DNA from: Nitrospira sp.
GTDB taxonomy: Bacteria; Nitrospirota; Nitrospiria; Nitrospirales; Nitrospiraceae
NCBI GenBank assembly: GCA_018242725.1
Contig: JAFEBI010000008.1
Location: 92,311-156,310 of the forward strand
Length of the DNA stretch: 64,000 bases
Reading direction: 5' to 3'
Of this stretch, positions 6,083 through 45,413 are shown piece after piece (position 1 is the stretch's first letter; every line of letters begins with the position of its first letter). A model generated the notes under the pieces. The model was not told where the DNA came from, searched no databases, and saw nothing but the letters and a program-made list of their open reading frames with translations. Both the position numbers and the translations under genes were made by a program.

Positions 6083-6087
6083 AAAGT

Positions 6088-6174
6088 CAGCCAGCGGCAT
6101 TATAAAGCGTGAAGCGTGTCTTGTTTCTGAGGAAGACTCGCTACGGTTCGCTCGCCTCAACGCGTCGCTGGCTG
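6088..6174. terminator. Possible long-range stem between convergent genes
   Basis: CAGCCAGCG at 6088-6096 is complementary to CGCTGGCTG at 6166-6174, a perfect 9-bp stem around a 69-base loop. It sits between the convergent regulator and kinase genes. It could be a bidirectional terminator or a small dispersed repeat. There is no T-tract, so termination is uncertain. Confidence 0.3.
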
Positions 6175-6201
6175 GCCTTACCCATAGCGGTAGGTAGCGG
6201 G

Positions 6202-7986: not shown

Positions 7987-8038
7987 GGTCGGACTCCACT
8001 ATGAATGACTGCCGACGGCCTCAGGTCTGATCAGTCGG

Positions 8039-9064: not shown

Positions 9065-9138
9065 ATTCTCAAGCCTCAGTACAGGTTGCAAGAGGCAGGA
9101 TCCCCTAGTGATGAGCTCCAAAGAGACCTAAATTATCA

Positions 9139-19172: not shown

Positions 19173-20624
19173 TTAGTCCAAGGACGCGGAGGGCGGTTTC
19201 GCCGGAATCTGTTTCTGTCTGAGAAGTTTAGTTAAGTAGGTTCGCTGCAGTCCCAGCTCGGTGGCTGCTTTCGTTTGGTTCCAGCCGTTCCTCCTGAGCG
19301 CATTCTCAATGAGTTTCTGGCTATAGGCGTCCATACTCTCGTGGTAGGAGAAAAACACGATGTCGGTCGATGGTTTCTGATTCAGCGAGGATGAAGCGTC
19401 CGTCTCGAGCGGTACGGTCATTAAGGAAAGATGCTCCGGGCCGATGGTGTCACCAGGACAGAGAACGAGGGCACGGGTGAGTACGTTCTCGAGCTCACGT
19501 ACGTTTCCAGGCCAGGAATACGTGTGCAACATCTGCAAGGCTGAGTCGCTGAGCGTACAGCGCCGATTGAGTCCAAGCTTTCCAGGTTGTGTGAGGAAAT
19601 GGTCGGCAAGCGCCGGTAGATCATCCAGACGATCGCGCAGAGGGGGTAAGTTGAGGGTAATCACCGCAAGACGGAAATACAAATCCTCTCGGAATGTGCC
19701 TTGACGAATTGCCTGCTGGAGATTCTTGTTGGTTGCCGCGATGAACCTCACGTCAGCCCGCACTTCCTGAGTGCCGCCGACTCGGTAGAATGTTCGGTCG
19801 TTCAGCACTCGCAGGAGATGACTTTGCATGGTGAGTGGCATATCGCCGATTTCGTCGAGAAATACGGTGCCTCCCTCGGCGATTTCGATTTTCCCTGGTT
19901 CTCGTTTAATGGCTCCGGTGAAGGCCCCTTTTTCGTGGCCGAACAGCTCATTTTCCAACAAGTTGTCAGGGAAGGCTGCGCAATTCACTGCGACGAAGGG
20001 TTTGCTGGATCGTGGGCTCCACCGATGGATTGCCCGTGCGATGACCTCTTTCCCTGTGCCCGTTTCACCGAGTAATAGAACTGTGACGGGTGAAGAGGCC
20101 GCTTGCTTGGCGACAGCGAGCTGCGCAGTCATGTGCGCATTGCTGGTGATTGCAGGTTGGAACTGATTCTCAACCTCCTTTCGTAGAGTGGCGACATGAC
20201 GGTGAAGCGTTACGGTATCGAGTGCTTTGTTGATGACGACGGTTAAGTGGTCAGAGGTGAACGGCTTGGGGACGAAATCAAAGGCACCCAACTGCATGGC
20301 TTGCACCGCGCGTTCAATCGTTCCGTACGCGGTCAGCATCACGATGAGGGGAGTCGTATAGGTTGCTGAGATTGGATGGGCCTCCTCATCCGGAGGATCG
20401 ATACGTACGGATGTTTGACTGACGTGTTTCAAGACGTCAAGCCCCGATAGTAACGGAAGCTCCAAATCCAACAAGACAAGGTCAGGCTGCTCCTCTTGGA
20501 TCAATCGGAGCGCTTCTTGCCCATTCGTTGCCGTCACCGGTTCATGGCCCATCCATGTGACGCGATTTTCCAAGCTAAGGAGGATATCGTGATCGTCATC
20601 GACAATGAGGATTTTCGCACGCAT
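19173..20624 (-). CDS. NtrC-family sigma-54-dependent response regulator (copy 2)
   Basis: Paralogue of the regulator at 4682-6082. The ATG at 20624 has AAAGGAG upstream. The receiver has Asp53 in LLDLELPLLSG and the VPKPFT lysine, again with an extra loop of roughly 15-20 residues between helix 3 and strand 4 (near EEAHPISATYTT). The AAA+ domain shows GETGTGKE, the GAFTGA sigma-54 loop and GTVFLDEIGD. The Fis-type helix-turn-helix (NQTKAAT, LQRTYLTKLLRQK) is at the C-terminus. It is the last gene of the operon binding protein - kinase - regulator, 16 bases after the kinase stop, and probably activates the operon's own promoter (inference). Confidence 0.95.
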   Translation of the reverse strand: MRAKILIVDDDHDILLSLENRVTWMGHEPVTATNGQEALRLIQEEQPDLVLLDLELPLLSGLDVLKHVSQTSVRIDPPDEEAHPISATYTTPLIVMLTAYGTIERAVQAMQLGAFDFVPKPFTSDHLTVVINKALDTVTLHRHVATLRKEVENQFQPAITSNAHMTAQLAVAKQAASSPVTVLLLGETGTGKEVIARAIHRWSPRSSKPFVAVNCAAFPDNLLENELFGHEKGAFTGAIKREPGKIEIAEGGTVFLDEIGDMPLTMQSHLLRVLNDRTFYRVGGTQEVRADVRFIAATNKNLQQAIRQGTFREDLYFRLAVITLNLPPLRDRLDDLPALADHFLTQPGKLGLNRRCTLSDSALQMLHTYSWPGNVRELENVLTRALVLCPGDTIGPEHLSLMTVPLETDASSSLNQKPSTDIVFFSYHESMDAYSQKLIENALRRNGWNQTKAATELGLQRTYLTKLLRQKQIPAKPPSASLD

Positions 20625-20640
20625 CAGAGGGGACTCCTTT

Positions 20641-23004
20641 CTAGAAAGACATGTGTCCAGGCTGAGTACACTCAGCTGACACGGACTTATTTGGGTTCGA
20701 TGTGGCCTGCTCCTGTGACTCGCACGCCGGGAGGGCAATGTAGAATTGAGACCCTGCCCCAGGCTGACTCTCGACCCAGATCCGGCCATGGTGCATCGTC
20801 ACATATGTCTTGGTGATCCAAAGTCCAAGTTGAGCACCTTGTGATGAGGGCATCGTCGACGGCACCTTGGAGAACTCTTCAAAGATATTGGGGAGGTGCC
20901 TCTCATCGATGCCGCAACCGGTATCAGCTACACAAACCTGAACGATGTCTGGTGATGAGGCACAAGGTTCAACGCATACACGACCACCGGGCGGAGTAAA
21001 CTTGATGGCATTGCCGATCAGATTCACGAAGATCTGTTCCAGTTTGTCGCGATCCCCCAGAACCGGCGGTAGGGATTCGACGGGGACAACTACCAGCGAA
21101 ACATTCTTTTCTGAAGCCACCGTCTGCAAGCTGTCTACGGCAATCGTGGCGATGTGGTGGAGACAGACCGTTTCCAAGTGCAAATCGACTCGTTCAGTGT
21201 CCAGCCGTGACCAGTCAAGCAACTGAGCGATGATTCTGCTGAGTCGTGCGACATTATGCTGGACCCGCGTGAGATAGGTTCGTTGCAGATCAGTCAAGGG
21301 GCCGGTGACGCCGTCCAGCATGTTTTCCGCAAAACTCCGAATCGCGGTCATGGGTGTCCGCAGCTCATGGGAAACGACGGAAAGAAACTTCGATCGACGC
21401 CGATCATGTTCCTGAAGTTGGGTATTGGCCTGAGAGAGTTCCTCGGTACGCTGTCCGATACGCTCTTCCAGATGCTGAGTCAGCTCGGCCAGATCAGCAT
21501 AAGCCGTGGCATTGTCAATGGCTGCCGCGACATGGCCGGCGATAGTCAGTAAGATGTGGAGATCTTCTTCACCACATTGATAAGTATCACGACCTCCTGC
21601 TAGAAAACCGAGAATCTTGGCTTGGCTCTGAAGCGGTACGATGACAAGCGATTTTGTGCCGGAACGCCGTAACAGATCAAGGAGCGGCGGATAGAAACGT
21701 GGAGCTATAGTTTCTATGTCTTGAATCAGGAATGGCTTGCGGTCAAAGAGGAGATCGGCGGTGATGCTTGCCTCATGGACAGGGATATGCACTTGACGCG
21801 CGGCTTTAGCAATTGCGGGGGAAACTCCGAAGACTTGGGCAACGGAGCAGCAATTTGTCTCTGGGTGGTAGAGGAGAACCGCCATCTTTGAAAATCTGAG
21901 ATTTTCCGAAAGGAGCTGGAGCACCGTCTCAATCAGCAGTTCCATGTCCATGACACTGGTGCTTGCAATGGCGGTGCTGGCCTGATGGACGGCGGTCAAT
22001 TGCCTGACTTGCTGTCGTATGGTGTCGATATTCCTGGTAATTGCCTGGTTGCGGTCACGCAAGGACTGCGTCATGAAGTTGAATGCATGGGTGAGCTGTC
22101 CGACTTCATCACGATGTGAGGAGATAGGCAAGCCTGTAGTGTCCTCCCCTTCCGCAAGTTTGCGAGTGGCTGCTGCAAGACTGCGCAGCGGGGTCGTAAT
22201 GCGGGAGGTCAGCAAGTAGATGATGAGGATGCCGGTTGCAATGATAAAGATGGTCAGGATGAGGACGTTGCGCACAATAAGCGCCAATGCCGTCTTCGCT
22301 TGGCCATCCGTGATCCCGATACGGACAATACCCACCACCGAGGATTGTGTGGTGGGTGATGGAGTCCTCCGTCTGTCCTCAAGCTCGATAGATGGTGAGG
22401 ATAAGGGAGTGACATCTCGCAAGATCGGCATGGTGAAATCAAAGAGCGTTTCTTCCCGAATCAGGAAGGGGAGGAACCAGTCGGAGGATGTCTGTTGAGG
22501 AATCAATCTCTTCTGGTCTGACGACCACACAAGGCGTGTGATCAATGGAGTCGTCAGTGGAATATGAGTCAATGAGTCAGACGGTCTGTTGTCCGGGTAG
22601 ATCGGTGCTGGAGAGGCGGAAAATGAGTTGCGACCAGCATCCCGTATGCGCTTGCTTTGTCTGCTGAGCAGACGGCCGTCTGCTCCCGTGATGATGACGT
22701 ACACCACGTGGTCGATCGCCATCAGGCTCTGCAGAAATTGATCAAGGGTGCTGCGGTCTTCTAAGACGATCCCGGCCACTCGAAAATGATCATTGCGTAT
22801 GGTCGTAGTGAGGAGAATGGTCCCCATCTCTTCCAAACTCGCGGTCATTGCCTGGTGCCTGGTCTCAAGAAAATACCAGCTTAATGTCGAGCAGGTCATG
22901 ATGAGGATCAGGCTGAATAATAATACAAACTTGATACGGAGACCGAACGTACGGTGTGGCCGTGGCGGAGACGATTCGTGCTGGCCTTGGTGAGTGGGGT
23001 ACAT
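20641..23004 (-). CDS. Membrane sensor histidine kinase with GAF-like domain (copy 2)
   Basis: Sensor kinase of the second module, 787 aa from the ATG at 23004. TM1 lies near residues 22-43 (FVLLFSLILIMTCSTLSWYF). A periplasmic region of ~200 residues follows, then TM2 (VRNVLILTIFIIATGILIIY), HAMP, a GAF-like domain (STAIASTSVMDMELLIETVL to VAAAIDNATAYADL), a coiled coil, HisKA (SVVSHELRTPMTAIR) and HATPase (NLIGNAIKFTPPGGRV, ADTGCGIDE). Compared with copy 1 it has gained the GAF-like domain and has a divergent sensor. It begins 10 bases after the binding-protein stop and ends 16 bases before the regulator start. Confidence 0.94.
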   Translation of the reverse strand: MYPTHQGQHESSPPRPHRTFGLRIKFVLLFSLILIMTCSTLSWYFLETRHQAMTASLEEMGTILLTTTIRNDHFRVAGIVLEDRSTLDQFLQSLMAIDHVVYVIITGADGRLLSRQSKRIRDAGRNSFSASPAPIYPDNRPSDSLTHIPLTTPLITRLVWSSDQKRLIPQQTSSDWFLPFLIREETLFDFTMPILRDVTPLSSPSIELEDRRRTPSPTTQSSVVGIVRIGITDGQAKTALALIVRNVLILTIFIIATGILIIYLLTSRITTPLRSLAAATRKLAEGEDTTGLPISSHRDEVGQLTHAFNFMTQSLRDRNQAITRNIDTIRQQVRQLTAVHQASTAIASTSVMDMELLIETVLQLLSENLRFSKMAVLLYHPETNCCSVAQVFGVSPAIAKAARQVHIPVHEASITADLLFDRKPFLIQDIETIAPRFYPPLLDLLRRSGTKSLVIVPLQSQAKILGFLAGGRDTYQCGEEDLHILLTIAGHVAAAIDNATAYADLAELTQHLEERIGQRTEELSQANTQLQEHDRRRSKFLSVVSHELRTPMTAIRSFAENMLDGVTGPLTDLQRTYLTRVQHNVARLSRIIAQLLDWSRLDTERVDLHLETVCLHHIATIAVDSLQTVASEKNVSLVVVPVESLPPVLGDRDKLEQIFVNLIGNAIKFTPPGGRVCVEPCASSPDIVQVCVADTGCGIDERHLPNIFEEFSKVPSTMPSSQGAQLGLWITKTYVTMHHGRIWVESQPGAGSQFYIALPACESQEQATSNPNKSVSAECTQPGHMSF

Positions 23005-23014
23005 GAGGGATCGC

Positions 23015-23983
23015 TCAATAGGTTTCGTCGATGAGATGCTCAACGTCCTTCGGGATCGTGATGCCCAAATAGCGAGCCGTCTTGAGATTGACGCTGATGC
23101 GGACGCGCTGAACCGATACCGGTTTGAGCGTCATCATCGGTTCGCCGTTTAGAATGCGTTTTGCTAAGCGACCGGTCTCGCGGCCGACTTCACCGTAGTC
23201 CACCGATAAGCTGAGCAATGCGCCCAGACGTGTGAATTCCGTCGAGAAGGCGATTACGGGAACGTGACGAGCTATTGCTGATTCAAGAATAAATCGAACG
23301 GACTCATCGGTCAGGACGGTCGGATCTGGAACGAGCCACAGTGCGTCTGATTCGGATAATAGCGTTCGTAGTTGCTGCGGGATGTCTTTCTCGTTCGTGA
23401 CGGGAAATCCTTGCATCTGAAAGTCGTGGACAGGACCGCGCAGCTCGGCCTCTTTGAGTTTGTTCAAGGTTTTCTCGGGGTCATAGAGCATGCCGATGCG
23501 ATGCAGTGCAGGAAAAAACGAGCGCATCATTTTGAACTGACGATCTGATGGAATCTCCAGCAGCACGCCCGTCATATTGCCCGCAGTGAGGTGATGTTTG
23601 ATCGGGTCGAGAATCATCATATAGAGGATCGGAATATGATCGATTTCAAGTTTGGCCGCCAAGGCGGCCTTCAATCCTACGGCCACGACTAACGAAGACT
23701 CCGATGTACGGATGCGCTTTGCCAGCTGCTTGCCTCTCTCCAGGTCGCCGAGCAGATCATACTCGGCAAATATGGCAGATCCTGGCGATGTGGCCTTGAA
23801 CCCGTCAATCGCCTCGTTATAGGCCTTGAGATCGGATGACTTCAGAATGGTAATCTCAAGCCCGGCAGCCTCAAGATATGACGAGGGCATCCATAGTAGG
23901 GACGCAAACACGAGCGCCGTCCGCAACCTGAATCGGACAGGGAATGAGAGTTCTGTTCGGTTTGGGCTGGCCGTACTCGTCAT
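23015..23983 (-). CDS. Periplasmic ABC_sub_bind-type binding protein (copy 2)
   Basis: Paralogue of the protein at 8039-9064; both mature parts start with E-I-x-I-L-K-S-S-D-L and contain GLKAALAAKLE. The ATG at 23983 is followed by a basic region and a hydrophobic signal segment (TALVFASLLWMPSSYLEAA); a TTG at 24025 would add 14 residues. No transporter genes lie nearby. It is the first gene of an operon with a membrane kinase and a sigma-54 regulator, and a sigma-54 promoter is found about 250 bases upstream. The likely role is ligand recognition for the kinase (inference). Confidence 0.9.
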   Translation of the reverse strand: MTSTASPNRTELSFPVRFRLRTALVFASLLWMPSSYLEAAGLEITILKSSDLKAYNEAIDGFKATSPGSAIFAEYDLLGDLERGKQLAKRIRTSESSLVVAVGLKAALAAKLEIDHIPILYMMILDPIKHHLTAGNMTGVLLEIPSDRQFKMMRSFFPALHRIGMLYDPEKTLNKLKEAELRGPVHDFQMQGFPVTNEKDIPQQLRTLLSESDALWLVPDPTVLTDESVRFILESAIARHVPVIAFSTEFTRLGALLSLSVDYGEVGRETGRLAKRILNGEPMMTLKPVSVQRVRISVNLKTARYLGITIPKDVEHLIDETY

Positions 23984-24245
23984 GGTGGCGTGAGCAGGGT
24001 GGATCTCCGCACGCGCGGTACACAACGGATCGGGTGACTACGTCGACTCATAGAAGCTGATCACGTTGTGTCCACGACTCAACACATCTCGGTGTGCCGC
24101 TGTCTGTAGGACAGATCGTTCTCACCGCAGCGGAGCTGCTCCGTTTGCAAGGGCGGCTGCTGGTCGGTCTCGTCACCGTTGCCTGGATCAGTCCCTTCTC
24201 GGTGCTTGGTGCCGCAGAAGGTATTGTCCTCTGTTATGGACATAG

Positions 24246-24433: not shown

Positions 24434-25189
24434 TCATCTTGCTTTCGTGTGAATGGAGCTGAGGTCCCAGTCGGCCACGCCGTTGAGGCCGACTTGTCTC
24501 AAAAGCGCGGCGCGGAGTCGTCGAAGTGAAGGGTCCGTTGGGTCCTTCTCGATCAGTGAGCACACACAGCCCATCGCATCGTACCAGAGTCCGATGGTGG
24601 CATTCGTCCGAACACTATCCTGGTCACAGGTCATCTTGGGTGTGATGGTCACGATGCATTCGCTGAATTCGCATCGTTCGATCATCCCCCCGGCGACGAT
24701 ATCCGAGGCATGGGATGCGGAATCCGGGCTGGCCGACACAAACCAGCGGTATTGAACATTCTCTTCCAGCGTCAAGCCCAAGGTCTTGAGGTCGATGGTG
24801 TGCACCCCGGCGACCGGTGGCGTGGAAAGAGGCCCTTCGTAAATCGGGCGGACTTTTCGATCATCCGTGATAGTGAATTTCAATGGATAGGAGGTTGGTT
24901 TTGACAGAAACCAATTGAGGGTCGGGGTTTGTTTCACAGTCAGCCCGATATGGTCTGGTACCAGTGCCACGATTTCTGCGTCAGTTGTGTCTCTTCCGCG
25001 CAACGCGCCGCCCACTCGGGCACGGAGAAAGACATTCTTTGGTGGAGCATAGACCGGCAGCCGTAAGTCCTCTTGTTGTCCTGTCGTTGGCGTTGGCGGC
25101 TGTTCCGACGCAGCCACTCCCGTGGCTGAGGTGATGAGGCTCAGGGCCAGAGCAATTCCAATGAGCGTAGAGGGACGGCGGAGATTCAT
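24434..25189 (-). CDS. DUF928-domain protein
   Basis: Exported protein of unknown function, 251 aa. A signal peptide (LIGIALALSLITSATGVAA) precedes a domain with the DUF928 pattern: YAPPKNVFLRARVGGALRG, IVALVPDHIGLTVKQTPTLN, WFLSKP, and YRWFVS. In cyanobacteria such genes are commonly found beside CHAT and filamentous-haemagglutinin-type genes, which is exactly the context here. It is the last gene of the TPS/CHAT operon, 47 bases after the CHAT gene. Cysteines in ERCEFSEC and MTCDQD, MGCVCSL could form disulfides in the periplasm. Confidence 0.8.
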   Translation of the reverse strand: MNLRRPSTLIGIALALSLITSATGVAASEQPPTPTTGQQEDLRLPVYAPPKNVFLRARVGGALRGRDTTDAEIVALVPDHIGLTVKQTPTLNWFLSKPTSYPLKFTITDDRKVRPIYEGPLSTPPVAGVHTIDLKTLGLTLEENVQYRWFVSASPDSASHASDIVAGGMIERCEFSECIVTITPKMTCDQDSVRTNATIGLWYDAMGCVCSLIEKDPTDPSLRRLRAALLRQVGLNGVADWDLSSIHTKAR

Positions 25190-25236
25190 GACGGCTCCTT
25201 TCCAGCTTCAATCGAGTAATGGTGCACAACCTTCGA

Positions 25237-27570
25237 TTAAAGCCAATTATTCATTAATAAGAACGGCGACCAGTAAGCCGGATGGCCATAGATCCGGTCG
25301 TGCAAGAGTTTCTGTTGGGCACGTTGGAGCGCGACGGCTTTGGAAAGAGCGGGATCGCGCAGTTGTCGATAAAATTCTCCGATCAGGGTTGCCGAGGCTT
25401 CATCGTTGATGAACCACAGTGTGGCGAGTGCACTGCGGGCACCGGCCTTCAATGCCACACCGGCCAACCCGAGCGCCGCACGGTCATCGCCGATACCAGT
25501 TTGACAGGCGCTCAAAGTCAACAGTTCGAGCGGCTCTTCTCTGAACCGAAAGAGGCCGATCAGTTGGTCAAGGGTCTGCATCGTCAGTTTTCCGTCGAAG
25601 GTCAATAGATACGAATCGTTCACGTCGGTCGAGAATTTGCCGTGGGTCGCAATATGGAGACCTCCATACTTTCCTTCACGCAATTCCCGTTCCAGCCTGG
25701 ATGTTTGAAAGGCGCTGTTCAGGAGTTGGTCGCTTTTGTAGAGCTGTTGAATGGATTCAACCTCGTTTGCCACAAACGGGAGGGCAGGGAAGCCTTGGAC
25801 AGCGGTGGTAAGGCCGGCAGTGAGAAAGCGGAGTTTGTCGCGATTGAGCGGACGCGGATCGGTCAATGTCAGACCAGGCGTCATGGCCAGCGCGAATTTG
25901 CTGACCAGAAAGGAATTCCCGTCGTGAAGCGCGGCCAACGGAATCGTCCGCAGGGCGCTGTCTGGAACAATGACCAGTGTCGAGATGTTCAGGTGCAACA
26001 GGTCGGTCTCGAGAGGACGGATCAGCCAGTCATAGAGTTGTTGGGCATGCGGCAGGTATTCACGGGTAGTGCGTTTTTCCACCAATCGACGAAAGGCTCG
26101 AATTTCTTGAGTCAATTGATCTGCAGATACCGGGACCGAGATGCGTTTCAAGCCCGAGGGGAGGCTCATGAGCAATTCCAGTCGGGAATTGAACATGATG
26201 GGATAGACGACGGCCGTATCCGCTGATAAGTGGTCGAATGTCGTCAACTTCGAACGAACGGCATCGACACACGCATCCTTGAAATAATCCCGCAGCTCGA
26301 CGGTCTTGTATGTTTCGATTGCATCTCGGGCGGTGCGTAGGTCGATATCGACCGCGTTGATCTCGTCGGTCAACGCGGCGCGTTGCAACAATAAGTCGGC
26401 CAGCTCAAAAAACAGCGGTTTTAAGGTATCTTGCTCACCGACAACACCATCGGAAGCAGCCTGTGTCAGCTCAGCGCGAATCGGTTGTAGTGTCAGCGTC
26501 GCTTGCTGGTAGGAGGCGATCGCCTGGTCAAGTTGTCCCACTGCAGTCAGCTGACGGCCAAGCTGCCATTGCCAGCGATAGAGCGATTCCGGCGCATCCA
26601 CCGATTGCGCGGCGAAGAGCGCTCGCCTGGTGAGTTGTAACGCTTCATCCATACGGAATGATGTTTCATACAGATGCCCAAGGTACCCCAGAGCATAGGA
26701 GAGGGTCCGTTTGTCGCCCAGGCGCTCTGCAATCATGGCGGCTTCCTGGAGCACGCCAGCCGTACGTAACAAGAGCGCATCATGTTCTTGAGGGAGGTGA
26801 GACAGCAATCGCTGGTAGGTCACCGCGATTCCGATCAGGCTGAGGGCTGTCTGTCTGGATGGAGGCGTTACCTCTTGTAATTGTTCTAGTGCGGCGTCGA
26901 GGGTTAGGCGGCTATTGGTCGCCTGCTTGAGTCGCAACCATGCCCGCGCGGCGTTCGTGCGGGCTGTTGCCGCGAGGAGAGGAAGGCGGGCGCTCTGTGC
27001 ATGGGTGACGCTTTCCTGAAAGGTATCGAGGGCTTTCTGATCCTGCTGCTGGAGGACAAGGAGGATGCCGAGATCGTTCAATGTGGTTGCAAGGAGCGGC
27101 GAAGAATTCTGCCTGTGCGCGAGGGCCGACGCCTGTTGGAGAAAATCCGATGCCTGTGGTAGTTGCCGCATCGTCAAATAGGTCCGTCCCAAGTGCCCGA
27201 GGATGGAGGCTTCCACAAGGGGATCACCGCTCTTCTGTGCCAGCCCCAGGGCAAGTTCCAGAGACTGTAGAGCTTGTTTGGATTGTCCTAATCCCAAGGA
27301 GGCTTGAGATGAGAGGACCAGGGCCTCGACCTGTGCTGGGGTATTGCCGGAACGTTTGTAGAGTTCTGCTGCCTTTTTCCAATGAGATAAGGCGGTACTG
27401 AGCGCGCCTCTTTCAAAGGCCAGAGCGCCTTCTTTCATCGACGAGCCGGCAAGGGAGGACACGTCATGGGATTCCGATTGTGTCGCAGTGAGCAAGGGAA
27501 TCGCCATCAAGAACAAGCAGCACATGGTGCGTCGGATGGAAGGACGAAACAATTGCATAGGTGTCAACAT
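25237..27570 (-). CDS. TPR-CHAT caspase-like protease, exported
   Basis: 777 aa from the ATG at 27570, which has AGAGG 5 bases upstream. A signal peptide (CCLFLMAIPLLTATQS) leads into TPR repeats over roughly residues 40-420 and a C-terminal CHAT domain (~500-777). The caspase-like dyad is His643 in LHIATHGKF and Cys689 in LTLSACQTG, followed by LGLAGVALKAGARSALATLW, the typical end of CHAT domains. Cleavage after a specific residue is known for some CHAT enzymes; the substrate here is unknown. It lies 11 bases after the TpsB gene, so the exoprotein or its transporter is a possible substrate or partner (inference). Confidence 0.9.
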   Translation of the reverse strand: MLTPMQLFRPSIRRTMCCLFLMAIPLLTATQSESHDVSSLAGSSMKEGALAFERGALSTALSHWKKAAELYKRSGNTPAQVEALVLSSQASLGLGQSKQALQSLELALGLAQKSGDPLVEASILGHLGRTYLTMRQLPQASDFLQQASALAHRQNSSPLLATTLNDLGILLVLQQQDQKALDTFQESVTHAQSARLPLLAATARTNAARAWLRLKQATNSRLTLDAALEQLQEVTPPSRQTALSLIGIAVTYQRLLSHLPQEHDALLLRTAGVLQEAAMIAERLGDKRTLSYALGYLGHLYETSFRMDEALQLTRRALFAAQSVDAPESLYRWQWQLGRQLTAVGQLDQAIASYQQATLTLQPIRAELTQAASDGVVGEQDTLKPLFFELADLLLQRAALTDEINAVDIDLRTARDAIETYKTVELRDYFKDACVDAVRSKLTTFDHLSADTAVVYPIMFNSRLELLMSLPSGLKRISVPVSADQLTQEIRAFRRLVEKRTTREYLPHAQQLYDWLIRPLETDLLHLNISTLVIVPDSALRTIPLAALHDGNSFLVSKFALAMTPGLTLTDPRPLNRDKLRFLTAGLTTAVQGFPALPFVANEVESIQQLYKSDQLLNSAFQTSRLERELREGKYGGLHIATHGKFSTDVNDSYLLTFDGKLTMQTLDQLIGLFRFREEPLELLTLSACQTGIGDDRAALGLAGVALKAGARSALATLWFINDEASATLIGEFYRQLRDPALSKAVALQRAQQKLLHDRIYGHPAYWSPFLLMNNWL

Positions 27571-27581
27571 GGAACCTCTTG

Positions 27582-29396
27582 TCAAAAGACCTGGACGACT
27601 GCCTGAAGATGGATGCCATGATCCTGGAGGTTGCCGGCGGGATGCGGGACATGATTGAGCGGCACACCCCAATAGAGTTCAAACCGTGCCCGGTCTTTCG
27701 GTAGGACCGTCCAACGGAGCCCCAACCCCACACTGGCCAAGGTTTGCGGATCGTCGGTTTTTCCCTTGGCCTGCCAGGTTTGGCCGACGTCGACGAATTG
27801 CGCGAACTGCAAGAGAGGCTCACCGCTGGCATAGCGGAGTAATGGAAAGCGAGACTCAACGGAGAAGAGAAAGCCATTGTCCCGAATCAGCGTATTCTCC
27901 CGGTACCCGCGCACGCTGAATCGCCCGCCGAGGGGAATTTGTTCCAATGGAAAGAGTCGATCGTTAGCAAGTTGTAAGTTGAGCTGCCCCAGGAGCTGCA
28001 TGCCCCACCAGTCGTCAAATCGCCTGATCCCCTGGAGTTGTCCCAGCCAGGAAAAGAAGCGTCCATCGGGTAGTGGTAACCCGTTTAATGAGACGCCAGT
28101 ATTGGTGGTGGCATTCAAGACATCCAGACCTACGGAAAAACGGGAGCGAGCCGCGATCACCGACGTCGAGGTGCGATGCACATATTCCTGTACAAAGCGG
28201 AGGGCACTCACGGCGCTGACTCCGGTGTTCGATGAGCCATTGATGAATGGCGAAGGTGAGCCAGGACTGTCAAAAATCGACGTCACTTTGTTATAGAGCC
28301 GCTCGCCGGTAATGGCGATGGCTAGTTCATCGGTGAGGGTTCGATAAATCGGATGGCGGATCGTGAACCCGATGATTTCCGATGTAGAGTTGAGGCCTAG
28401 GGCACGGAATTGACTCTCAACCACCACAAATTCGTTGCGACGGTAGGAGGCCGTAAATGTTGTATCGTAGCGATTGATTGGTATCGTGTACGATACATCG
28501 ATGACCGGGTGGACCCCGCGTGAACCACCGTAGGTGATGCTTAACGGATCGCCATGTCCGGTCACGTTTTGGTGAGCGACCGTCAGCAAACCCCGCTCAG
28601 CTCCGACTGCCGGTGTCTGATAGTTGCTGAACTCCGCCCACATCTTCCAGGGGCTTTGCTCCTTGACGTTGACGTGGAGAATACTCTGCCCTCGTTGATC
28701 GCCGGGACGTAATTCCGCATTGATCCGTTCGATGCGGGGATCTTGTTGGAGTAATTGCAATCGTGTTTGAAGCGGCTCCATCTGCAACGGGGGACCGGCA
28801 CCGAGTGCCAGGCGGTCGCTGAGAGTGCTTCGTCTGAACCAGCTGGTTCCTTCGATATCGATCCGCGACAGGGCGCCTTCGATGATCTGAATCTGAATCA
28901 CGTCGTCGACCACGTCTTGATCGGGAATAACGGCGCCGGAGGTGATGTAGCCCTTGTTGACATACAAAAGCGTGAGTGCCAGTCGCAGCCGTTCCAAATC
29001 CTCAGTAGTGAGGACCTGATTGTGGTAGGGCTTCGTGATGGCTTCAATTTCCGCATTAGAAAAGACGGTATTCCCTGTTACCTGTATGGATTTGACCAAG
29101 ACGTGGATCTGGCCAAGATGAGGCTGTGTTTCGCCGTCCGGTGGAGTAGTTGGCACTGATGGAAGTACCGGGTTTGGTGGAGGCATCGTAGACGGGGCGA
29201 ATTTTTTCTTGAGTGGACCGGAGGGCTCTCCGGATCGGAGGGTTGGGTCAAAGACCGGAGGGAGGACCTGTGCACCTACCGGAGCGGATGGCGTCATGAT
29301 CGTCATAACGAAACTTCCGTACAGCAAGGCAGAGACGAGATGACGACGTCGATCGCGGCGCGCCAAACCGACTAAGCTGACCCTCATGAGGGACAT
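27582..29396 (-). CDS. TpsB-type outer-membrane transporter (ShlB/FhaC/HecB family)
   Basis: Two-partner (type Vb) secretion pore in the Omp85 superfamily, 604 aa. After the signal peptide and a Pro-rich linker comes a POTRA domain (HVLVKSIQVTGNTVFSNAEIE; LTLLYVNKGYITSGAVIPDQ), then a 16-strand-type barrel with the VRGYRE motif in GGRFSVRGYRENTLIRD and a C-terminal Phe (VVQVF). All parts needed for function seem present. It overlaps the end of the TpsA gene by 13 bases, so the two are translationally coupled, and it should export that protein. Confidence 0.94.
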   Translation of the reverse strand: MSLMRVSLVGLARRDRRRHLVSALLYGSFVMTIMTPSAPVGAQVLPPVFDPTLRSGEPSGPLKKKFAPSTMPPPNPVLPSVPTTPPDGETQPHLGQIHVLVKSIQVTGNTVFSNAEIEAITKPYHNQVLTTEDLERLRLALTLLYVNKGYITSGAVIPDQDVVDDVIQIQIIEGALSRIDIEGTSWFRRSTLSDRLALGAGPPLQMEPLQTRLQLLQQDPRIERINAELRPGDQRGQSILHVNVKEQSPWKMWAEFSNYQTPAVGAERGLLTVAHQNVTGHGDPLSITYGGSRGVHPVIDVSYTIPINRYDTTFTASYRRNEFVVVESQFRALGLNSTSEIIGFTIRHPIYRTLTDELAIAITGERLYNKVTSIFDSPGSPSPFINGSSNTGVSAVSALRFVQEYVHRTSTSVIAARSRFSVGLDVLNATTNTGVSLNGLPLPDGRFFSWLGQLQGIRRFDDWWGMQLLGQLNLQLANDRLFPLEQIPLGGRFSVRGYRENTLIRDNGFLFSVESRFPLLRYASGEPLLQFAQFVDVGQTWQAKGKTDDPQTLASVGLGLRWTVLPKDRARFELYWGVPLNHVPHPAGNLQDHGIHLQAVVQVF

Positions 29397-32116
29397 CCCG
29401 TAGCCCTTGGCGCGAATGTCCGAACTAAGAATCCAGACGGGGTCAGCCGTCGGAGTGAGAATATGGGAGGCTTATTCTTTTGCCCGGCCATTACTGGTAA
29501 AGAATCAACATTCTGATTCCATGCCATGGGTCTGGAGGCATGCGCGGTGTCCTCTCTGGTCCAATGCTCCACTGAAACCGGACTACTGAGCCATCCACTC
29601 GGTTCGCTTGGAAGCGCATCTCGTCCGGCAAGAAGAAATGTGCTCTGTTCACCGCCGGCTAAGGCGACACAACGATTTTGCAATAGGACTTGAGGCGGGC
29701 TTGTCTTCGACACGAGCTGACCAACTGTGCCACTGAGATTCGACGTGGGGGATTGAATCGTTATCCGTCCATTAAGTCCGAATGGTGTTGAGGCATCGAT
29801 TCGGCTCGATTGATCCGCAATGAACACAGGTGTGGTGATTGAGATATCTCCGCCAGTGCCTCGATTTGCCTGTGCGAGAACCTCGCTGTTCTGGAGTAGG
29901 ACAACTTTTGGGTCAATGGTGATGTTGCCTCCATTGCCGCCCCCATTGAGAGCCGATGTGCTGATTTCTCCATCGACGACTCGGACAAGGTCAATTGCCT
30001 GTATATTGATATTGCCACCATTGAGTTGATTCGATTGTGTCGTAATCAAACCTCGTTCCACATCGAGCTGCTTGCCGGCATTGATCTCAATATTGCCAGC
30101 GATTCCTGACCCAGTGCTGCTAGAGGATACAGTTGCCCCATCCTTGATCGTGACGGATTGTCCGGCCCTGAGCGCGATGTTGCCGCCGGATCCAGTGCTA
30201 GCTGAGGAGGATGTAATGGTTGAATCTCTACTGATGGTAATATCATTGGCCCTCACCAATATGTTGCCGGCATTGCCAGAACCACTGGTACTGGCCGTAA
30301 TCGAAGCGTTATTATGTAAAGTTAACTGATCCGTCGCGGTTAAAGTGATTGAGCCGCCTCTCGCTGATGGAGCAATCCCAAAGGTTGATGCTGAGAGCGT
30401 GCCCCCGTTCTGGAGGGTGACTGAACTGGCGTTTACTGCAATATTTCCAGCCGCGCCTGTACCTTGAGTTCTGCTATATACACCACTTCCTGGCCCATCA
30501 ATTAATAGTAATAGCGTAGAGTCGATTAAGCTCTGGGGGCCACGGATGCTGATAGTTCCACTAGGGCCTGAGCTAGAGGTCGTAGCATCGGCGGAAAGTT
30601 TACCCCCATCTGCAAGTCGAACCTCCCTTGCAGTAATGATTAGGTCTGCTGCAGCTGCAGTTCCAGTTGTGCCTGTTTCAATCTCAGACTGTCCATCAAG
30701 CTTGAGTGAGTTACTTAGGATAATATCCGTGCTTCTGGCGGCTTGAGTGGAGAAGTTGTCGCCATCAATCCTGGATCCATCGTGCAATTCAAGATTGTTT
30801 GCAACGATCTTGATGCTGCCAATTGTTCCGGTGCCACCACTGGCGGAGGTAAAAATAACAGACTTGTCAAGAAGACGAACATCTCCGTGCGACGTGATTA
30901 TTTCAATGTTGCTCGTGTTTCCCGACCCTTGACTTGTTTGTGAGGTGATCGAGGAGCCTTCCCTTAAGTAAACATTGCCTTGGTTACTTCTTAGCGCAAT
31001 GTTTCCAGCATGCCCGGCGGCACGTTCTGAGAACGACTCAATGCTCGCCTGAGAATCCATCACAATGTCCCCTGAAGATTCGAGGGTAATGTGCCCGGCA
31101 TTTGCTGTTGTTGTGGTAAAAGTTATGATTCCAGCGTTCTTTAGCTGAGTGGAGTCTGAAGTGAGCAAGATATCCCCAGTATTTGAGCCGATTAATGAGT
31201 TTTCAACAATTAACCGACCCCCACGAATGCGAATTGCTCCTCCTCCGTTACCTCTAGTGTCGATAGCCGATCCTTGAGAGATTCGAATCGTACCGAGCGT
31301 TTCAGGTGACATGTGTGCAGAATTTGCCAATATTCCTTCAGAAACTTCCCCTTGTGAAGCCACGCTGGTTATAAGAACTTGTTTGCCTGGCGTTGAGGAG
31401 TTCGGTGGATCAGCAATATTCCCTAGTCTGCCAGATTCGATAGTGATGTTCCCGCCAACCAAGGTAATTGATTGTCCAGGTGGGGCTTCCAGATTGCTTC
31501 CCTGCAGAAAAATAGCTGCGGGGGTTGGGTTAAGGAATCCGAATGCGGCAACAGGCGCGCTACTAAGAACGTTTGGTATCCCAGGACTGACGTGAAAGAT
31601 TCCTGACGCCCCGTTAGTTTGGGAAAGTCGTAGGTAGTCAGCTGTGGTAAATGCAACGGAACCGCTTACAGTTAAAGTTGCATTAGGCCCGAAAATGATA
31701 CCGGCTGGGTTCAAGAGAAACAAATTGGCTCCAGGATAGCTCGTAGTATTGATGGTGCCAAAGATATACGAAGGGTTTCCGCCGGTTACTCGACCTAAAA
31801 TGTTATCCGTGCCGATGGATGGCGTCGTGTTCAAAAACTGAGCTGTATCTCTATGTCCTACGCTGAATTGATCAAAGCTATGAAAAAGATTGGGTCCAGT
31901 CCCGTTGTCGGACCTGGTTCCTCCGGTAATCTGGATAGTGTGTCCCTGGGTCGTCGTCCTAGTTCCAAGATCACCGGCACCGCTCGTATGAGCGATGGCG
32001 GTGACCACTTGGGACTGCGCCAATACAACCTCAAATGATAGCCATACAAAACAGAAGAAAAAAATGGCGGCAAGAGTTCTTGCATCAGGTAAAGAACGAA
32101 TGGGCATAACACGCAT
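29384..32116 (-). CDS. TpsA exoprotein with haemagglutinin-type secretion domain
   Basis: Secreted beta-helix protein of about 910 aa. I chose the ATG at 32116 with AGAGG upstream; ATG 32107 is also possible. A long signal peptide (TLAAIFFFCFVWLSFEVVLA) is followed by the TPS domain, with HSFDQFSVGHRDTAQFLN, the NILGRVTGG stretch and the NPAGI-type motif in LFLLNPAGIIFGPNATL. Repeated beta-helix rungs follow (many GNI, GGNI and SGT segments up to residue ~830). The C-terminus has a few cysteines (LQNRCVALAG). Target and role outside the cell are unknown; adhesion is common in the family. Confidence 0.92.
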   Translation of the reverse strand: MRVMPIRSLPDARTLAAIFFFCFVWLSFEVVLAQSQVVTAIAHTSGAGDLGTRTTTQGHTIQITGGTRSDNGTGPNLFHSFDQFSVGHRDTAQFLNTTPSIGTDNILGRVTGGNPSYIFGTINTTSYPGANLFLLNPAGIIFGPNATLTVSGSVAFTTADYLRLSQTNGASGIFHVSPGIPNVLSSAPVAAFGFLNPTPAAIFLQGSNLEAPPGQSITLVGGNITIESGRLGNIADPPNSSTPGKQVLITSVASQGEVSEGILANSAHMSPETLGTIRISQGSAIDTRGNGGGAIRIRGGRLIVENSLIGSNTGDILLTSDSTQLKNAGIITFTTTTANAGHITLESSGDIVMDSQASIESFSERAAGHAGNIALRSNQGNVYLREGSSITSQTSQGSGNTSNIEIITSHGDVRLLDKSVIFTSASGGTGTIGSIKIVANNLELHDGSRIDGDNFSTQAARSTDIILSNSLKLDGQSEIETGTTGTAAAADLIITAREVRLADGGKLSADATTSSSGPSGTISIRGPQSLIDSTLLLLIDGPGSGVYSRTQGTGAAGNIAVNASSVTLQNGGTLSASTFGIAPSARGGSITLTATDQLTLHNNASITASTSGSGNAGNILVRANDITISRDSTITSSSASTGSGGNIALRAGQSVTIKDGATVSSSSTGSGIAGNIEINAGKQLDVERGLITTQSNQLNGGNINIQAIDLVRVVDGEISTSALNGGGNGGNITIDPKVVLLQNSEVLAQANRGTGGDISITTPVFIADQSSRIDASTPFGLNGRITIQSPTSNLSGTVGQLVSKTSPPQVLLQNRCVALAGGEQSTFLLAGRDALPSEPSGWLSSPVSVEHWTREDTAHASRPMAWNQNVDSLPVMAGQKNKPPIFSLRRLTPSGFLVRTFAPRATGCPS

Positions 32117-32152
32117 CCCAACCTCTGTCGTGGGTAGCCTGATGGCCGGCAA

Positions 32153-32329
32153 TTACTTTTTGCAAACGCAGCCTGGCGGTTGATCCACATTGCAGGTGCT
32201 TCCATCGTAAGAACACCTTGTTTCTGGCCCAAACCCAAATTTGGCACAGCCCCCGAGAGAAACGCTGAACAGTAATAAAATGGTAAAATAAGTAACAACC
32301 TGAACCGACTTACGTTTCTGATTCATCAT
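32153..32329 (-). CDS. Small lipoprotein, 58 aa, first gene of the TPS operon
   Basis: The frame starts MMNQKRKSVQVV with GGAGG 7 bases upstream. A hydrophobic stretch ends in a lipobox (SVSLGGC), so the mature protein would be a lipid-anchored peptide of about 30 residues. It contains four further cysteines (TRCSYDGSTCN, PGCVCKK), probably forming two disulfides. It ends 36 bases before the TpsA start and follows the operon promoter. I recognise no family. Its position suggests a role with the exoprotein or its secretion (inference). Confidence 0.75.
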   Translation of the reverse strand: MMNQKRKSVQVVTYFTILLLFSVSLGGCAKFGFGPETRCSYDGSTCNVDQPPGCVCKK

Positions 32330-33173: not shown

Positions 33174-34409
<1,236 letters not shown>

Positions 34410-37662: not shown

Positions 37663-38232
37663 ATGATAAACAAGAAAAAGATCTTCCTGGCCTCCTCGTC
37701 GGAATTGGCGGACGATCGGCGTCAATTTGAAATCTTTCTCAACCGGAAAAACAAGTCTTGGGTGAACCAAGGGGTCTTTTTGGAACTCGTGCTCTGGGAG
37801 GATTTTCTTGACGCAGTATCTCAGACTCGGCTGCAAGATGAGTACAATCAAACCATTCGTGATTGTGATCTCTTCGTCATGCTGTTCTTTACCAAGGTGG
37901 GCACGTACACCGAGGAAGAGTTCGAGACCGCTTTCGGGCAGTTCAAGACGACCAACAAGCCCTTTATCTTCACGTATTTCAAGGACGCGCCGATTTCAAC
38001 CGGGGCGTTGGACGATGCGGTGCTCTCGCTTCTTCAGTTCAAGAAGAAGCTGAGTACGCTTGGGCATTTCTACACCGTCTACAAGAATGTCGAAGACTTG
38101 CAACTTAAATTCGACCAACAGTTGGACAAATTAGTTGCCACCGGCTTTATCGAGTTCAAGCGAGATGCAGGCGAGGCATCTGCCCCAACAATCCACATCA
38201 GCGACAGCAAGAATGTCGTGGCGGGCAGTTAA
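37663..38232 (+). CDS. TIR/DUF4062-like effector, C-terminus truncated by a stop
   Basis: 189 aa. The domain starts KKIFLASSSELADDRRQFEIF and continues with LELVLWEDFLDA, QDEYNQTIRDCDLFVMLFFT and TYTEEEFETAFGQF, a Rossmann-like pattern close to DUF4062 and TIR-type domains. A NAD-cleaving role is possible but not shown. The C-terminus ends DSKNVVAGS at TAA 38230. The same frame continues after the stop with INTDGGDVIVGGNTTRKT to a TAG at 38287-38289, 5 bases before the next gene. This lost tail aligns without gaps with the start of the next protein, so the stop looks like a nonsense mutation or a read-through point. Confidence 0.75.
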   Translation: MINKKKIFLASSSELADDRRQFEIFLNRKNKSWVNQGVFLELVLWEDFLDAVSQTRLQDEYNQTIRDCDLFVMLFFTKVGTYTEEEFETAFGQFKTTNKPFIFTYFKDAPISTGALDDAVLSLLQFKKKLSTLGHFYTVYKNVEDLQLKFDQQLDKLVATGFIEFKRDAGEASAPTIHISDSKNVVAGS

Positions 38233-38294
38233 ATCAATACTGACGGAGGCGATGTTATCGTCGGTGGTAACACAACAAGAAAGACCTAGGGCTC

Positions 38295-40235
38295 ATGCCT
38301 GAGACACAACTCGACAACGTCCAGAATGCCATTGTGAACTCCACGGTCACCACCGCGGGCGGCGATGTTTTGGTGAACGGACACAAAGTTACCAACTATT
38401 ACTATTCCGCTCAATATCAAGAGCTCAAAAAGCACGCCGATGAACTAGACACTCGATTTGCGAAGACCCAGCAGAAGATCGAACAATACCCCGACGATGA
38501 AGATTTCAAGGCCGAGCTGCTGACCATCAGCGAAATGCGGAATGAGATTCACAAGAAACTCGACGATTTCAAACAAGAGGTCATCCGCCTTGCCGAAACC
38601 TTCACCAAACTGCCCATTAACACCGAGCGGTTGAAGTTGGCCCAACAGCACTTTGAGGTAGGTGAGTATGCAGCCGCCAGGGCCGTCTTGGATGCTGAAC
38701 AGATGAGTACCGAGCTCGGTGCCCTCCTGCGGCGAGACGAGGAACTGCAACAGCAGCAGGCAGAAGTCCAGAACCTCCGCATGGACAAGGCGCATGAATT
38801 TTTCATCCTGGCGCGACTGACCGCCATCGACTTCACGAGGCTGGACCGCTTTGAACGGACCCGCGACTACTTTGAGCAATCCCTCAAGGCAGCGCATACG
38901 TCCGAGAATACGTTTGCCTATGCGTATTTCCTACAAAAGCACAATCAATTCAATGCCGCTGTACCCTGGTATACGGAAGCGCTGACGATCTATCGCCGCT
39001 TGGCGGAGGCCAATGCCCAGACGTATTTGCCGTATGTGGCCACGACGCTCAATAACCTTGGCGTTTTGCAGGAGGCTAGGAACGAAATGTCCGCGGCGCA
39101 GGTGGCCTATGAGGAAGCGCTGACGATCTATCGCCGCTTGGCGGAGGCCAATGCCCAGACTTATTTGCCGTATGTGGCCACGACGCTCAACAACCTGGCC
39201 TCTTTGCAAGCAGACACGAACGAAATGTCCGCGGCGCAGGCGGCCTATGAGGAAGCCCTGACGATCCATCGCCGCATGGCGGAGGCCAATCCTCAAACGT
39301 ATCTGCCCGAAGTCGCGATGACGCTCAATAACCTTGGCGTTTTGCAGGAGGCTAGGAACGAATTGTCCGCGGCGCAGGCGGCCTATGAGGAAGCCCTGAC
39401 GATCCGTCGTCGCTTGGCGGAGGCCAATCCCCAAACGTATTTGCCGTATGTGGCCACGACGCTCAATAACCTTGGCGTTTTGCAGAGGGCCAGGAACGAA
39501 ATGTCCGCGGCGCAGGCGGCCTATGAGGAAGCCCTGACGATCCATCGCCGCATGGCGGAGGCCAATCCCCAAACGTATCTGCCGGATGTGGCCAAGACGC
39601 TCAATAACCTTGGCGTTTTGCAGAAGGCTAGGAACGAAATGTCCGCGGCGCAGGCGGCTTATGAGGAAGCCCTGACGATCCGTCGTCGCTTGGTGGAGGC
39701 CAATCCCCAGAAGTATCTGCCCGATATGGCCGGGACCCTCAACAACCTAGCCAATTTGCAAGCAGCCAGGAACGAAGTGTCCGCGGCGCAGGCGGCCTAT
39801 AAGGAAGCCCTGACGATCTATCGCCGCATGGCGGAGACCAATCCCCAGACGTATCTGCCCGATGTCGCGATGACGCTCAACAACCTGGGCCTTTTGCAAG
39901 CAGCCACGAACGAATTGTCTGCGGCGCAGGCGGCCTATGAGGATGCTCTGACGATCTATCGTCGCTTGGCGGAGACCAATCCCCAGACGTATCTGCCCTA
40001 TGTCGCGATGACGGCGAGTAACCTGAGCCGCTTCTATAGGCAAGCGCTGTTGGACCAAAAGCGATCACTAGACTACGTCCGTGAGACGCTCACTGCCGCC
40101 CTCCCATTCGTGGAGGTGTTACCTGCTGCGGAACAATACACTCGCCGCGCGTTACAAGTCGTCGAGGCGTGGGGGCTTGATACAAAGACGTTTCTTGAAG
40201 AAACGATTCAGTCGATAGAAGCCAACACCCCATAG
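38295..40235 (+). CDS. TPR-repeat protein with N-terminal beta motif
   Basis: 646 aa, no signal peptide or membrane segment. Residues ~8-35 hold the motif NAIVNSTVTTAGGDVLVNGH, which matches the tail encoded after the stop of the upstream gene. A coiled coil follows (~40-160, QELKKHADELDTRFAKTQQK), then a TPR solenoid with eight 46-residue repeats (ALTIYRRLAEANAQTYLPYV, ATTLNNLGVLQEARNEMSAA). No nucleotide-binding NACHT or NB-ARC domain is seen, unlike most receptors with such motifs. With the upstream gene it forms a two-gene module, likely island cargo, in which the TPR part could sense a ligand (inference). Confidence 0.85.
   Translation: MPETQLDNVQNAIVNSTVTTAGGDVLVNGHKVTNYYYSAQYQELKKHADELDTRFAKTQQKIEQYPDDEDFKAELLTISEMRNEIHKKLDDFKQEVIRLAETFTKLPINTERLKLAQQHFEVGEYAAARAVLDAEQMSTELGALLRRDEELQQQQAEVQNLRMDKAHEFFILARLTAIDFTRLDRFERTRDYFEQSLKAAHTSENTFAYAYFLQKHNQFNAAVPWYTEALTIYRRLAEANAQTYLPYVATTLNNLGVLQEARNEMSAAQVAYEEALTIYRRLAEANAQTYLPYVATTLNNLASLQADTNEMSAAQAAYEEALTIHRRMAEANPQTYLPEVAMTLNNLGVLQEARNELSAAQAAYEEALTIRRRLAEANPQTYLPYVATTLNNLGVLQRARNEMSAAQAAYEEALTIHRRMAEANPQTYLPDVAKTLNNLGVLQKARNEMSAAQAAYEEALTIRRRLVEANPQKYLPDMAGTLNNLANLQAARNEVSAAQAAYKEALTIYRRMAETNPQTYLPDVAMTLNNLGLLQAATNELSAAQAAYEDALTIYRRLAETNPQTYLPYVAMTASNLSRFYRQALLDQKRSLDYVRETLTAALPFVEVLPAAEQYTRRALQVVEAWGLDTKTFLEETIQSIEANTP
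38979..40022 (+). repeat. 138-bp tandem repeats inside the TPR gene
   Basis: Copies start at 38979, 39117, 39255, 39393, 39531, 39669, 39807 and 39945, exactly 138 bases (46 codons) apart. They are highly alike at the DNA level, for example the segment encoding NEMSAAQ. Such near-identity suggests recent duplication or gene conversion. Confidence 0.85.
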
Positions 40236-44549: not shown

Positions 44550-45413
44550 GTTAGCTGGCGACGCGAGCCAGGCTTTGTACCCAAGAGAGATGACGACCAC
44601 CATGAACAGTCATCTTTCTTGGGACAATTTCTATCTACAAAGGTTTGCCTCTTGTTGATAGAGACCGCAGCACAGTCGCAGCGGGTATGCTTGGTGCATA
44701 ATCCCACGATACAACGCCAAATCTAAAAGTAAGATCTATCAATGATTTGGTACCCGATATTTCAATTAACCTCGTGCATATGATCTTTGACCTGCCCGAG
44801 CTAATTTGGTCCAGGGTGACTGTTAAACTGGATCGCAATCCTACGCCAGGTTGAAGGGCGTTCCATCCACTCAGATCCAGCGGAGGCTGCAGCGTTAAAA
44901 CTATTGCACCATGAGACACCAAATGCGGGAGGCCCACCGATGTTGGACAGAGTGGAACGAAAGATTATGCAGAGTTTGCTACCAAGAGAAGACCGAAACA
45001 CGCGAACACATGACTTCCTGGCGAGCGCATCTCTACCTCAATCAACTTGATAAGTTGTTCACTCCCATCTGGCGTAACCATCTCTACGGGATTCTCATAA
45101 AGACCATCATAAATGGGAAGGGGGCCACGTCATCATCCATGAGTCCGAAATTATTTCGTACCCACCGAACTGAATCTCTTTCGATTCACCTCTGTATCTC
45201 TTTTGATTCAGTCCTTACCACTCGATACGGACATCTCTGTATCAACTTAGAACAGTGATACGTATATCTATGTGACATTACTGTTGTTGCGAATATATAT
45301 ATTTAGAGCTTCTCTCAAGCATCATTCTTGCTTTGTGTAAATATATATAACAGCTTATCCCAAGATAACGGGGCAGCTTTCGTTGGCAATTCCACCTGTC
45401 GGGGAGAATGATC
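44550..45413. other. Non-coding stretch with palindrome cluster
   Basis: No convincing gene in about 860 bases. The right half contains the TGWATC-type cluster at 45171-45255. Confidence 0.45.
45171..45255. promoter_or_regulatory. Cluster of TGWATC-N6-GATWCA palindromes
   Basis: TGAATC-tctttc-GATTCA (45171-45188) and TGTATC-tcttttt-type second site with GATTCA (45193-45210), exactly 22 bases apart. A half-site GATACG lies at 45224, and TGTATC-aactta-GAACAG at 45238-45255. Located about 160-240 bases upstream of the neprosin-type gene. Confidence 0.5.

Follow-up and report, generated by a model that had tools for sequence, protein, structure and literature searches.

In the sections of the literature drawn on here, release of the TpsA protein CdrA of Pseudomonas aeruginosa follows from cleavage of its periplasmic tail by LapG (PMC5422565; PMC7484184), and the C-termini of the TpsA proteins HMW1 and HxuA bear disulfides and are expected to lock in TpsB (PMC5422565). 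The same sections of a 2017 review place the genes for maturation proteases apparently outside two-partner secretion (TPS, or type Vb) operons (PMC5422565). Here we describe an operon in a 64,000-nucleotide stretch of Nitrospira sp. DNA (assembly GCA_018242725.1, contig JAFEBI010000008.1, positions 92,311 to 156,310; hereafter the window) in which the genes for a TpsA exoprotein and a TpsB transporter are followed by genes for an exported CHAT-domain protein, predicted to be a protease, and for a DUF928 protein. TpsA ends in a tail with two cysteines and an arginine motif, and this tail tracks the exported CHAT protein in two phyla, which suggests a dedicated tail-processing system. On balance, we think it probable that a maturation protease is built into this type Vb secretion module, namely the CHAT protein, which would process the tail of TpsA.

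The proposed arrangement resembles that of CdrA and LapG in that a TpsA would be held at the surface by its periplasmic C-terminus until a dedicated periplasmic protease releases it. LapG belongs to a different protease family from CHAT, and whereas CdrA is cut at TAAG, the window's TpsA carries the motif GR(G/D)xLP between two cysteines. A LapG-type site was considered and rejected, as TAAG is absent from the window's TpsA (P0004) and [TPA]AAG occurs in only 1 of 99 tails. HMW1 and HxuA share with the window's TpsA a C-terminal element with cysteines, the disulfide being a prediction for the latter, but neither an operon-encoded protease nor a GRxxLP motif is described for them. FhaB of Bordetella is likewise a TpsA matured by a dedicated protease, SphB1, but SphB1 is an autotransporter of the subtilisin type and, unlike CHAT, is encoded away from the TPS locus. 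The known parts are therefore TPS, CHAT and periplasmic proteolysis of TpsA, and the new part is an operon-borne CHAT together with a two-cysteine arginine tag. Within the portions of the literature covered, the combination of a CHAT domain with TPS was not found and DUF928 was mentioned once in passing; an earlier description may exist.

All five open reading frames (ORFs) of the locus lie on the minus strand, and TpsA, TpsB, CHAT and DUF928 form a tight operon with export signals on all four products. The features are as follows:

24434..25189, minus strand: DUF928 protein, 251 amino acids (PF06051, E 1.4e-29), exported
25237..27570, minus strand: exported CHAT protein with tetratricopeptide repeats (TPRs), a predicted protease of 777 amino acids from the ATG at 27570 (PF12770, E 4.6e-56, plus TPRs)
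25504..25506, minus strand: codon of the predicted catalytic Cys689 (Cys685 in P0002), invariant in homologs
25642..25644, minus strand: codon of the predicted catalytic His643 (His639 in P0002), invariant in homologs
27582..29396, minus strand: TpsB outer-membrane transporter, 604 amino acids (POTRA_2, 4e-22; ShlB, 2e-28)
29384..32116, minus strand: TpsA exoprotein, 910 amino acids from the ATG at 32116 (PF05860 TPS domain, 2.4e-33)
29387..29674, minus strand: conserved C-terminal tail of TpsA, comprising C816, SxFxxAGR832-D-x-L-P-x-x-P, a linker, SLRRLTP and C908
29621..29623, minus strand: codon of TpsA Arg832, which we propose as P1 for cleavage by CHAT, an arginine conserved in the tails
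32153..32329, minus strand: predicted Cys-rich lipoprotein of 58 amino acids at the head of the operon (lipobox LGGC28)

The TpsA reading frame is open from a TTG at 32152 (29384-32152), with the ATG at 32116 the more likely start. Its product has an N-terminal signal and a TPS domain (also TIGR01901, 6e-20), and the adjoining gene encodes a TpsB with POTRA_2 and a ShlB-type barrel, which together identify the pair as type Vb. As the initial annotation of this DNA had reported, TpsA and TpsB overlap (by 13 nucleotides) and the CHAT gene begins 11 nucleotides past the TpsB stop; because this start, the ATG at 27570, has AAGAGG just upstream, the annotation's numbering of the dyad as His643 and Cys689 is also right, with P0002 beginning four residues later. 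The gap between CHAT and DUF928 is 47 nucleotides. Scans for promoters and terminators gave signals no higher than in shuffled sequences.

The tail consists of a cysteine, 10-25 residues, the core S-x-F-x-x-x-G-R-(G/D)-x-L-P-x-x-P, a linker of 50-90 residues, and a second cysteine within the last 25 residues; Pfam and NCBIfam contain no model for it. It is present in nearly every intact TpsA adjoining an exported CHAT. Both tail cysteines are found in 32/32 TpsA proteins from the window's family (Nitrospiraceae) and in 64/67 from Cyanobacteria, with exactly two cysteines outside the signal region in 18/32 and 59/67, respectively; in the window's TpsA, C816 and C908 are the sole mature cysteines and flank Arg832. 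Arginine occupies the proposed P1 position in all 32 tails of the family and in 60 of the 67 cyanobacterial tails. Between the two phyla, the motif core is 45% identical, compared to 31% for the TPS domain, 13% for the stretch just upstream and 7% for the linker.

Within the window's family, 85 of 147 genomes encode DUF928, and the order TpsA-TpsB-CHAT-DUF928 is strictly syntenic in approximately 39 of 40 DUF928 loci, as far as the contigs reach. The survey of relatives that the initial annotation had called for thus strongly supports it, here and in Cyanobacteria (below): DUF928, CHAT and TPS genes occur together far beyond chance. A second, paralogous clade (L033, L035, L036, L038 and L039) has DUF928 inverted and about 2 kb from CHAT, and in L033, the only locus of this clade read, a gene for a CHASE2-guanylate/adenylate cyclase lies between them. 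The tail itself also follows CHAT. Among 150 listed TPS-domain genes sampled from the family, 94 of the 108 with a tail lie within 12 kb of CHAT, versus 7 of the 42 without one (Fisher p 4e-16, with no correction for relatedness). The seven include a TpsA with a divergent tail (FIVVEHEGLP, in G002) and a fragmented TpsA (in G129); the untailed proteins as a group include very long FHA-like proteins encoded in the same genomes as CHAT, away from it. In TpsB-TpsA-CHAT operons without DUF928, short TpsA proteins (425-475 amino acids) still end in the tail, with an R(D/E) pair at its core. The window's own genome encodes an orphan tailed TpsA (G000:C32, L163:7592-10459) and one exported CHAT of this kind.

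Plasmid-borne relatives of CHAT and TpsB are mostly cyanobacterial, with TpsB relatives also on Escherichia, Cronobacter and Rhizobium plasmids, and all 22 tail-matching records in a search of 72,556 plasmids were cyanobacterial. Sets of DUF928, CHAT and haemagglutinin-type genes had been noted for Cyanobacteria in the initial annotation, and the module does recur there: across 90 loci, comprising plasmid regions and 80 chromosomal loci with many contigs ending early, TpsA was found near an exported CHAT in 56, DUF928 in 54, CHASE2 in 50 and TpsB in 21. The tail is present in 42 of 146 cyanobacterial genomes and exported CHAT (counted at E 1e-60) also in 42, and these are the same genomes; another eight, in which a TPS domain exceeds the cut-off, lack both. 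Eight cyanobacteria encode 12-55 tails per genome, which, together with the orphan TpsA in the window's genome, argues that CHAT would act in trans. Finally, in two cyanobacterial genomes TpsA, tail, TPRs and CHAT form a single protein of 1,626 amino acids with TpsB nearby (L186:5366-10246; L187:5373-10253). This fusion keeps the first cysteine and GRGGLPPNP and is missing the terminal cysteine.

The CHAT dyad (His639/Cys685 in P0002) is invariant in 38 full-length homologs from the window's family and in 55/55 sequences of a second alignment; a 39th homolog, from L038, is outside the full-length set, as a frame break splits its CHAT domain. N-terminal hydrophobic segments are present in 35/39 and 82/89 CHAT homologs, in agreement with the export predicted at the outset. 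The domain match (PF12770) and the fold matches of an AlphaFold model (pLDDT 87) both indicate a caspase-like fold, with Csx29 the best match (Z 30.6) and the separase protease domain also close (Z 24.4, root-mean-square deviation 3.3, 309 residues). These relationships came from fold comparison; a sequence search of the PDB with the CHAT domain returned DdvA alone, and weakly. Csx29, of Craspase, shares the architecture of TPRs followed by pseudo-caspase and caspase CHAT domains, but it partners Cas7-11, is activated by RNA and has Csx30 as its substrate, whereas the protein described here is exported and its gene is linked to those of TPS. We noticed no cas gene in this operon, and no search aimed at Cas7-11 or Csx30 was made. 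We rejected a reading of the operon as anti-phage defense, as PADLOC returned a generic TPR model for CHAT (P0002) and nothing for the other operon proteins. Separase shares the fold of the protease domain and cuts after arginine, but is eukaryotic and acts on cohesin.

By analogy with the HMW1/HxuA lock and the release of CdrA by LapG, we propose that CHAT processes a retained two-cysteine tail. TpsA would thread N-terminus first through TpsB, and its tail, the two cysteines presumably joined by a disulfide, would remain behind in the periplasm and act there as an anchor or a plug, in the manner of HMW1 and HxuA. CHAT, also periplasmic, would recognize its substrate through the TPR arm and then cut the tail at GR|(G/D)xLP or close by, switching TpsA from an anchored to a released or mature form, as LapG does for CdrA. 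CHAT could act both in cis and in trans, one CHAT serving several TpsA proteins. DUF928, often beside a CHASE2 sensor, may report or gate the state of TpsA as an optional arm. That CHAT and the tail are functionally paired seems quite likely to us. We place a cut at exactly the proposed arginine bond somewhat below an even chance; it is less certain than the pairing because we could not establish that CHAT retains the P1-Arg pocket of separase.

Several observations weigh against this proposal. The P1 arginine is not universal, with Lys in three and Ala, Gln, Ser and Glu in one each of the 67 cyanobacterial tails. The aspartate that binds the P1 arginine in separase (D2151) appears not to be conserved in CHAT: in an ungapped segment around LW(x3)D it falls at W+8, which is Ala723 of P0002, a placement that holds if C2110 is the catalytic cysteine of separase. 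This S1 residue thus did not serve to prove arginine specificity. Asp719 of P0002, at W+4, is invariant in CHAT homologs, and the Csx29 counterpart of D2151 is K670. The proposed cut also falls between C816 and C908, so that, if these are paired, cleavage alone would leave TpsA attached. The complete genome G012 encodes a tailed TpsA although it has no CHAT other than a distant one, and the genomes are related, such that p-values overstate their independence. Finally, we infer the cleavage from sequence. The initial annotation had suggested CHAT as the protease acting on the C-terminus of TpsA; this idea is now independently backed by the conserved tail, which follows CHAT, and by the natural fusions, with its central step still predicted.

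We considered three other explanations. The tail could do no more than anchor TpsA in the periplasm by a disulfide or dock as a plug in TpsB, with CHAT being a watchdog acting on other targets, such as an envelope-stress or death protease triggered by stalling of TpsA or attack on TpsB; CHAT would then read the tail without cutting there. That most TpsA proteins have two cysteines when mature, resembling the HMW1/HxuA anchor, fits this explanation, as do the inducible effectors among the relatives of CHAT (Csx29 and gasdermin-linked proteases) and a TPR arm suited to a receptor. However, a pure anchor needs no arginine motif, whereas the core with the arginine is much better conserved than the sequence around it, and the fusions put CHAT directly behind the tail. 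We regard this possibility as unlikely. It is very unlikely, in our estimate, that CHAT is instead a sortase-like transpeptidase that attaches the cut C-terminus of TpsA to an acceptor on the surface, in the way PorU handles type IX cargo. PorU is also of clan CD, CHAT has a clan CD fold with an invariant dyad, and a C-terminal tag common to many unlinked cargo proteins is what one would expect of a sorting system; but we saw no acceptor-pathway gene that regularly accompanied the module in the loci of either phylum. Shared ancestry alone, with one tailed TpsA lineage moving with CHAT and DUF928 as a block and CHAT not acting on the tail, would suit loci that are syntenic and related but is barely plausible, given that the tail is kept on orphan TpsA proteins encoded at a distance from CHAT (nearly always in a genome that has CHAT) and on short TpsA proteins with very different bodies, while the linker around the motif is unconserved.

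The proposal of tail processing by CHAT could be extended to a general system that sorts type Vb cargo by its C-terminus. One exported CHAT would recognize and cut the two-cysteine GRxxLP tails of several dozen TpsA proteins in a cell, encoded at unlinked sites, and might also ligate the new C-terminus to an acceptor on the surface, with sensing by DUF928 and CHASE2 in control. We consider this distinctly unlikely; if true, it would be for TPS what PorU or exosortase is for other secretion routes.

DUF928 is a looser partner of CHAT, as it is found in 48 of the 146 cyanobacterial genomes, including 41 of the 42 with CHAT and 7 without. An obligate partnership was rejected on these 7 genomes and on the several CHAT-tail modules that lack DUF928. 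The window's DUF928 protein matches PF06051 at 103.7 bits (curated cut-off 26), and 102/106 homologs have an N-terminal hydrophobic segment. Its AlphaFold model (pLDDT 80.5) combines an immunoglobulin (Ig)-like sandwich (residues ~73-172) with TPR-like helices (190-239), and its best fold match is MtxA of magnetotactic bacteria (4z29, Z 9.2 over 153 residues; the next matches are at ~6). MtxA has the same two-domain fold, and the mtxA gene is followed by one for a CHASE2-adenylate cyclase (PMC4439547), an order that mirrors the DUF928-CHASE2 pairs; in contrast, the two proteins are only 12% identical, and the sections of that paper drawn on here gave no association of MtxA with TPS (PMC4439547). 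The CHASE2 sensors near DUF928 vary, the one in cyanobacterial L084 (659-3016) having a CHAT domain of its own and that in L033 a cyclase domain. DUF928 more probably belongs with CHASE2 sensors, and is probably a sensing arm of the module, an MtxA-like Ig and TPR protein often encoded near CHASE2.

The 58-residue ORF that heads the operon was presented in the initial annotation as a new lipoprotein of the set. Its lipobox (LGG-C28) and four further cysteines are real, but it lies outside the conserved system, as no homolog was found in any of ~40 related loci and no convincing match in the 78 other genomes of the genus (79 searched, self only). We therefore rejected it as a core component; it is probably lineage-specific and accessory.

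Just upstream of the TPS operon, at 33174-34409, the 3' end of an integrase-like gene extends into a tRNA-Arg gene, likely an integration site. Elsewhere in the window, a 189-residue DUF4062/TIR-like protein (sub-threshold matches) is followed by a 646-residue protein with near-identical TPR repeats (37663-40235, plus strand), which looks like a conflict-type gene pair. Neprosin is a peptidase family, and a Neprosin-family protein with a Neprosin activation peptide is encoded at 45408-46673 on the plus strand (PF03080, 2.5e-55), followed by two large proteins without a Pfam family (46698-50258 and 50298-51560). Two similar sets of a substrate-binding protein, a histidine kinase and a sigma-54-type regulator lie at 4682-9121 and 19173-24025, the former adjoining TonB-dependent-receptor-like genes.

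This type of operon is widespread in two phyla, and an unmodelled C-terminal tag names its probable substrates, of which there are dozens per genome in filamentous cyanobacteria. DUF928 gains a fold and, in CHASE2, a likely partner. If tail processing by CHAT is correct, a large class of exported CHAT proteins would acquire a substrate and a place of action, the lineage of separase and Csx29 would extend to the envelope, and the release of adhesins by cyanobacteria and environmental bacteria would become testable by a single point mutation.

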